DNA from: a virus
Length of the DNA stretch: 28,160 nt
IMG/VR virus record: IMGVR_UViG_3300006920_000178
Span: 1-28,160 of that record
Direction: 5' to 3' (one strand)
Part shown: piece by piece, positions 25,856 through 26,332 of the stretch
How positions within the stretch are numbered: position 1 is the stretch's first letter
How the letters are laid out: every line of letters starts with the position of its first letter
Made by a program: the position numbers and the translations under genes
Notes under the pieces: generated by a model
The model's database searches: none
Told to the model about the DNA's origin: nothing
The model's input: only the letters and a program-made list of their open reading frames with translations

Positions 25856-26332
25856 TTATTTAGCCTTGTCTGCACAAAACTTCTGCCACCGACCTACGGG
25901 ATCACCGCTATAACTCGCCAGCGCACTAATAACCAAATCGACATCTCGGTTTAACCGAGATGTCGATTTGAAATGATATGCGGCTTTATCTACGTTCAAA
26001 GATAAATCCACAATGGTTTCTACTCCAAACAAATCTAACTTACCCTTTCTTTTGCTACCCCTTAACGCATTAAACGCCACGGAGTTAGCCGTCATGTCAA
26101 CTCGGTGAACCGAGCCCACAAAGCTCAAGTAGAATAATAGTTCAACTAATTTTAAACTAATATCCAACATAATTAAGCGAGCGGTTGGTTCATCACTTAA
26201 CCGCGTCGCGAACAGCCGCTGCATGTCGTCATTAATGACTTTGTATAACTCGGCTATACGTCGTTCCGCTGACATAATCTCGGTTATACTAGTGGTGTCT
26301 AAAACCCCAGCAGGGGCACATAAATAATACAT
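25856..26332 (-). CDS. Unknown 158-residue protein whose gene contains a long palindrome
   Basis: The protein is mainly helical. It contains SAERRIAELYKVINDDMQRL, then a hydrophobic helix (IMLDISLKLVELLFYLSFVG) that might be buried or membrane-associated, and a basic middle (RGSKRKGKLDLFGVETIVDL). It has no motif I recognise. AGAGGA is eight bases before the ATG and overlaps the end of the 43-residue gene upstream, so translation is coupled. A 37-bp near-perfect palindrome lies inside the coding sequence at 25934-25970 and encodes KSTSRLNRDVDL in frame without disturbing it. The nearby oligoribonuclease-like gene suggests an accessory metabolic or take-over operon. Confidence 0.6.
   Translation of the reverse strand: MYYLCAPAGVLDTTSITEIMSAERRIAELYKVINDDMQRLFATRLSDEPTARLIMLDISLKLVELLFYLSFVGSVHRVDMTANSVAFNALRGSKRKGKLDLFGVETIVDLSLNVDKAAYHFKSTSRLNRDVDLVISALASYSGDPVGRWQKFCADKAK
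25934..25970. repeat. 37-bp near-perfect palindrome (18-bp arms, 1-base centre)
   Basis: The left arm CAAATCGACATCTCGGTT (25934-25951) is the exact reverse complement of 25953-25970, with a single T at 25952. It is inside a coding sequence. In DNA it could form a cruciform or bind a dimeric protein; in RNA it makes a 17-bp hairpin with a three-base loop. Confidence 0.97.

Follow-up and report, generated by a model that had tools for sequence, protein, structure and literature searches.

The locus and its phage context

The window analyzed here, the whole stretch of 28,160 bases, is a linear virus record of a tailed phage. The relatives of its virion protein (15056-17065) and of its tail-adaptor homologue (13958-15067) are ~26-37% identical, and include Caulobacter phage GB2A and the uncultured phage MW202545. 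Near the right end of the window, a minus-strand block of genes holds a DnaQ-like exonuclease (26711-27256), a free-standing HNH endonuclease (25425-25766) and a 158-codon open reading frame (ORF) that contains a long palindrome. The features of this ORF and its surroundings are collected in Table 1.

Table 1. Features in and next to the palindrome-bearing ORF (window coordinates)
Feature	Position	Strand	Remarks
158-aa ORF holding the palindrome	25856-26332	minus	orphan; predicted helical, with low confidence
Perfect inverted repeat, 37 nt, 18-bp arms, 1-nt centre T25952	25934-25970		arms in simulated windows ≤12
Arm 1, CAAATCGACATCTCGGTT (plus strand)	25934-25951		complement forms the gene's second arm and encodes NRDVDL
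Arm 2, AACCGAGATGTCGATTTG (plus strand)	25953-25970		complement forms the gene's first arm and encodes KSTSR plus bases 1-2 of the centre Leu codon
Short inverted repeat CTCGGTGAACCGAG (CTCGGT-GA-ACCGAG), with the six-base half-sites of the main palindrome	26101-26114		same ORF
11-bp inverted repeat, terminator-like stem	25820-25855		directly after the ORF stop codon; T-rich tail ATTATTT on the plus side

Several other features of the window were observed. A plus-strand promoter-like site (TTGACA-18-TATGAT, with TG before the second hexamer; window 25760-25862) overlaps the start of the HNH gene and reads into the terminator-like stem with its ATTATTT tail, which could give a small or antisense RNA. 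At 13294-15067 the tail-adaptor homologue and two neighbors are encoded on the minus strand and flanked by plus-strand structural genes; since adaptor and virion protein share one orientation in MW202545 and GB2A, a local inversion is likely here. The left end of the contig (1-232) carries a 72-bp direct repeat in three copies that are 97-100% identical, and a 1379-aa ORF (9056-13195) with internal repeats ~141 bp apart likely encodes a tail or fibre protein.

Relatives of the 158-aa ORF were found neither in PHROGs, Pfam, NCBIfam and PDB sequences nor by tblastn on phages and plasmids, nor in exact-peptide scans of IMG/VR and GTDB, which reach close relatives only; it should be mentioned that the searched collections may leave out records very near the window. 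The loci reached via the virion proteins (80 and two more, together with two annotated phages) do not encode this ORF, and scans with the exonuclease and with a 241-aa protein (24220-24945) gave no close kin. The AlphaFold2 model of the ORF has a pLDDT of 50, and because the structure prediction is so poor, the fold search was uninformative.

The preliminary description of this DNA had reported two exact 18-base arms around a single T, and this was borne out: the arms are exact reverse complements in 18 of 18 pairs, with T25952 as a 1-nt spacer. Other perfect inverted repeats of the window have arms of at most 11 bp; the terminator-like stem 78 bp from the palindrome is one that reaches this length. 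When the window was simulated 60 times with a second-order Markov model, the longest arms measured 8-12 (spacer up to 20), and 1.31 Mb of comparison DNA, mostly phage, has arms of ≤12 at a spacer of up to 5. The earlier statement that such an arm lies beyond chance thus stands, and the palindrome is real, statistically extreme and not a chance event. The search for the same arm elsewhere, proposed at the same time, gave no second copy in the window and no match in IMG/VR.

The sequences immediately outside the arms diverge at once. This bears on the possibility that the palindrome is a sequencing, amplification or assembly error of the metagenome contig, in the form of a fold-back copy. Polymerase fold-back during amplification yields inverted copies, and the contig is a single unconfirmed virus record. 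However, fold-back chimeras usually give long inverted flanks, and the ORF is open across the palindrome, so that we give very little credence to an artefact.

Codon phase and the palindrome-dictated peptide

The palindrome corresponds to codons 121-133 of the ORF. The frame is intact, as had been noted before, and the stop follows 25 codons later. The centre base is a codon position 3, and palindromes of this type are classed as 'phase 3' by Mikhailov et al. (PMC6649704). Third positions pair with one another and positions 1 with positions 2, giving pair classes of 6 + 6 + 6, in which 12 of the 18 pairs tie codon position 1 to position 2. According to PMC6649704, phase 3 imposes the tightest peptide coupling, with on average 1.59 amino acids permitted per opposite residue, and is depleted among long coding palindromes.

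The longest arm reachable by any synonymous recoding was computed for each odd centre at least 54 bases from gene ends in the 24 genes of the window. Under such recoding, 7,444 of the 7,445 phase-3 centres are limited to an arm of ≤9; the palindrome's own centre has 18. Because synonymous recoding cannot reach an arm of >9 at the other centres, the peptide KSTSRL/NRDVDL must have come with the palindrome. In other words, the peptide itself is dictated by the palindrome, and the amino acids had to change along with the bases. The codon constraint pointed out in the preliminary description was right but understated, as the phase is the most constraining one and the residues themselves follow from the repeat. 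In its simple form, the idea that synonymous changes in a pre-existing peptide were tuned to accommodate a regulatory site is excluded, since no comparable site reaches such an arm. Several codons inside the arms are rare, with TCG at 0.09, CGG at 0.12, CGA at 0.14 and GTC at 0.12 of the usage for their own amino acids. For orphan genes, this recoding test is a simple means, independent of relatives, to tell copied RNA structures from tuned ones.

The coding score of the ORF is positive ahead of the palindrome and gives no clear signal at or after it, where only 25 codons follow. Because the coding signal is not clear in these last codons, the ORF may be under little constraint towards its C-terminus, and a templated event could have been tolerated there.

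Possible roles as an RNA or DNA element

The transcript is predicted to form a hairpin with a 17-bp stem and a 3-nt loop (-26.5 kcal/mol, z = -9.3; -18.9 as DNA), and the 201-nt context of the palindrome folds at z = -7. Selection could have favored an RNA hairpin towards the 3' end of the ORF, e.g. for RNase III processing, as an mRNA-stability site or as a translational pause that sets expression within the minus-strand operon. Such a hairpin would agree with the strength of this stem and with its location 78 nt upstream of another stem placed after the stop codon. However, RNase III cleavage or mRNA stability needs no such perfection, and a structure under selection would be ill placed in the codon phase that constrains most. 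The window holds no second hairpin of such kind, and the Rfam search gave no match. We regard selection for such a hairpin as rather unlikely, although it is a possibility with some weight; any role in the mRNA, including an influence on decay or RNase III cleavage, is putative.

The palindrome is a poor candidate for an intrinsic terminator. In such terminators a U-rich tract directly follows a GC-rich stem; here the next bases are GTTATTAGTGC (minus strand) and AAATGATATGC (plus strand), with no U tract. A loose scan passes only a minus-strand tail with 5 T in 8 (TTATTAGT), so that the lack of a T run reported earlier holds in substance.

A DNA-level site, either the operator of a dimeric regulator or a cruciform for a nuclease or resolvase, is brought to mind by the second CTCGGT/ACCGAG inverted repeat, which the ORF carries at a distance of 156 bp; the pattern is confined to these two places. 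The half-sites are spaced unequally in the two repeats (2 versus 3 bases), and the wider similarity is weak, the local alignment score being reached in 4% of random 500-bp stretches. Both repeats lie within a gene rather than at a promoter. The outermost 12 bp of each arm lack a further copy, and no regulator gene is known from the fragment. The short repeat slightly favors a binding site, and its link to the main palindrome is unproven; overall we consider a DNA-level site very unlikely. Clustering of CTCGG in the ORF was discarded as evidence, as the two palindromes themselves contribute four of the six copies.

Known protelomerase (telomere resolvase) sites are even-centred. The palindrome has an odd centre with the unpaired T25952, and the protelomerase family PF16684 was not found in the 28-kb fragment, which is probably an incomplete genome. 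A telomere-resolvase site is therefore unlikely.

Taken more broadly, the phage could maintain the perfect 37-nt palindrome for use as a DNA or RNA element, and pay for it with about twelve dictated amino acids in the costliest codon phase. We consider this unlikely. The earlier interpretation is sustained as regards non-randomness and the capacity to form a hairpin, and the roles that it proposed are unsupported.

Insertion of a small mobile palindromic element in frame, similar to a Rickettsia palindromic element (RPE) or a remnant of a MITE or REP, was also considered. The ends of a repeat family in Rhodoferax read CCTAATGGACAATCTCGGTTTAA, with CTCGGTTTAA common to the palindrome core. However, the core common to both follows from the search pattern itself, with a weak extension beyond it, and the Rhodoferax ends are opposite in orientation and bracket a longer interior. 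A dispersed element (RPE, REP or MITE) would be expected in multiple copies in the phage or related genomes; the arm is absent from IMG/VR and single-copy in the window, and no target duplication is visible at the site. The search with the core CTCGGTTTAACCGAG gave 41 matches in IMG/VR besides the window, with arms of 7-9 and at about the chance level. Among genome contigs it gave nine matches, most of them followed by T runs and terminator-like, and one of them the junction of the Rhodoferax repeat ends. A mobile-element origin accordingly retains only a slight probability.

It is noted that the family in Rhodoferax-related genomes is MITE-like, with ends TTTAACCGAGATTGTCCATTAGG and CCTAATGGACAATCTCGGTTTAA. 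In L129 (6986-7018) two such ends abut to form a long palindrome, other copies are present in G001 and G366, and related GGACAATCTGGGTTTAA repeats are found in G223 and G309.

A proposed templated origin and comparison with known palindromes

With moderate confidence, we propose as the most likely origin that a single mutational step, a template switch, produced the palindrome in an orphan phage gene, at a place under weak constraint. A polymerase replicating the DNA or repairing a hairpin would pause at a small pre-existing inverted core (e.g. GGTT-T-AACC) and switch template, moving onto the opposite strand or onto the nascent strand folded back. One arm would then be copied as the reverse complement of the other before the polymerase returned to its own template. 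About six codons of one arm would thereby be overwritten, or inserted, with the complement of the adjacent codons while the frame stays open. The 17-bp hairpin in mRNA and single-stranded DNA would be a by-product, which may be neutral or mildly functional.

The length, perfection, minimal spacer and uniqueness of the palindrome, its open frame and its palindrome-dictated peptide are observed; the template switch, its recency and the identity of the source arm are what we infer. A single templated event would account for the length, the perfection, the minimal spacer, the uniqueness and the rare codons in the arms. Template switching is expected to leave near-perfect, closely spaced inverted arms, as found here, and to alter amino acids with the arms rather than synonymous positions only, in keeping with the single phase-3 centre out of 7,445 that exceeds an arm of 9. 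It is known from microbes. In yeast coding genes it has been described to homogenise the arms of inverted repeats, with up to five adjacent amino-acid replacements (PMC8604942), and perfect stems can arise from a single such event (PMC8794818). Perfect pairing at all 18 positions, in a lineage whose nearest virion-protein relatives are ~35% identical, suggests either recent formation or active maintenance.

Several points count against a templated origin. The searches gave no relative from before the event, with which a template switch could be proved. A functional hairpin or site under active maintenance predicts equal perfection, the change of ~18 nt and six codons exceeds the cited yeast cases (PMC8604942), and the short palindrome with the same half-sites at 26101-26114 is not accounted for by a single event. 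If the templated origin is true, the locus would be a clear phage case of one replication error rewriting several adjacent codons with the frame left open, and would illustrate how proteins can change abruptly in a way not captured by ordinary substitution models.

We have compared the palindrome with known systems. Its stem-loop is of comparable or greater stability than those of intrinsic terminators, from which it differs in having no U tract directly after the stem, in lying inside an ORF and in a stem longer than usual. The mitochondrial coding palindromes of Nematomorpha (PMC6649704) are likewise perfect inverted repeats in ORFs, imperfect ones are not in excess, and template switching has been suggested as their origin. 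However, they occur as many repeats per genome, reach 284 bp and, when long, are mostly of phase 1 or 2, whereas the phage palindrome is single, 37 nt long and of phase 3. The yeast cases (PMC8604942) share identical inverted-repeat arms in coding sequence and clustered nonsynonymous changes; they are backed by parental comparison and involve up to five adjacent residues, whereas the phage case is known from the present sequence alone. For RNA hairpins formed by template switching (PMC8794818), a perfect stem is similarly explainable by one event, but these were reconstructed phylogenetically in RNA genes, in contrast to the phage palindrome in an ORF for which no relatives were found.
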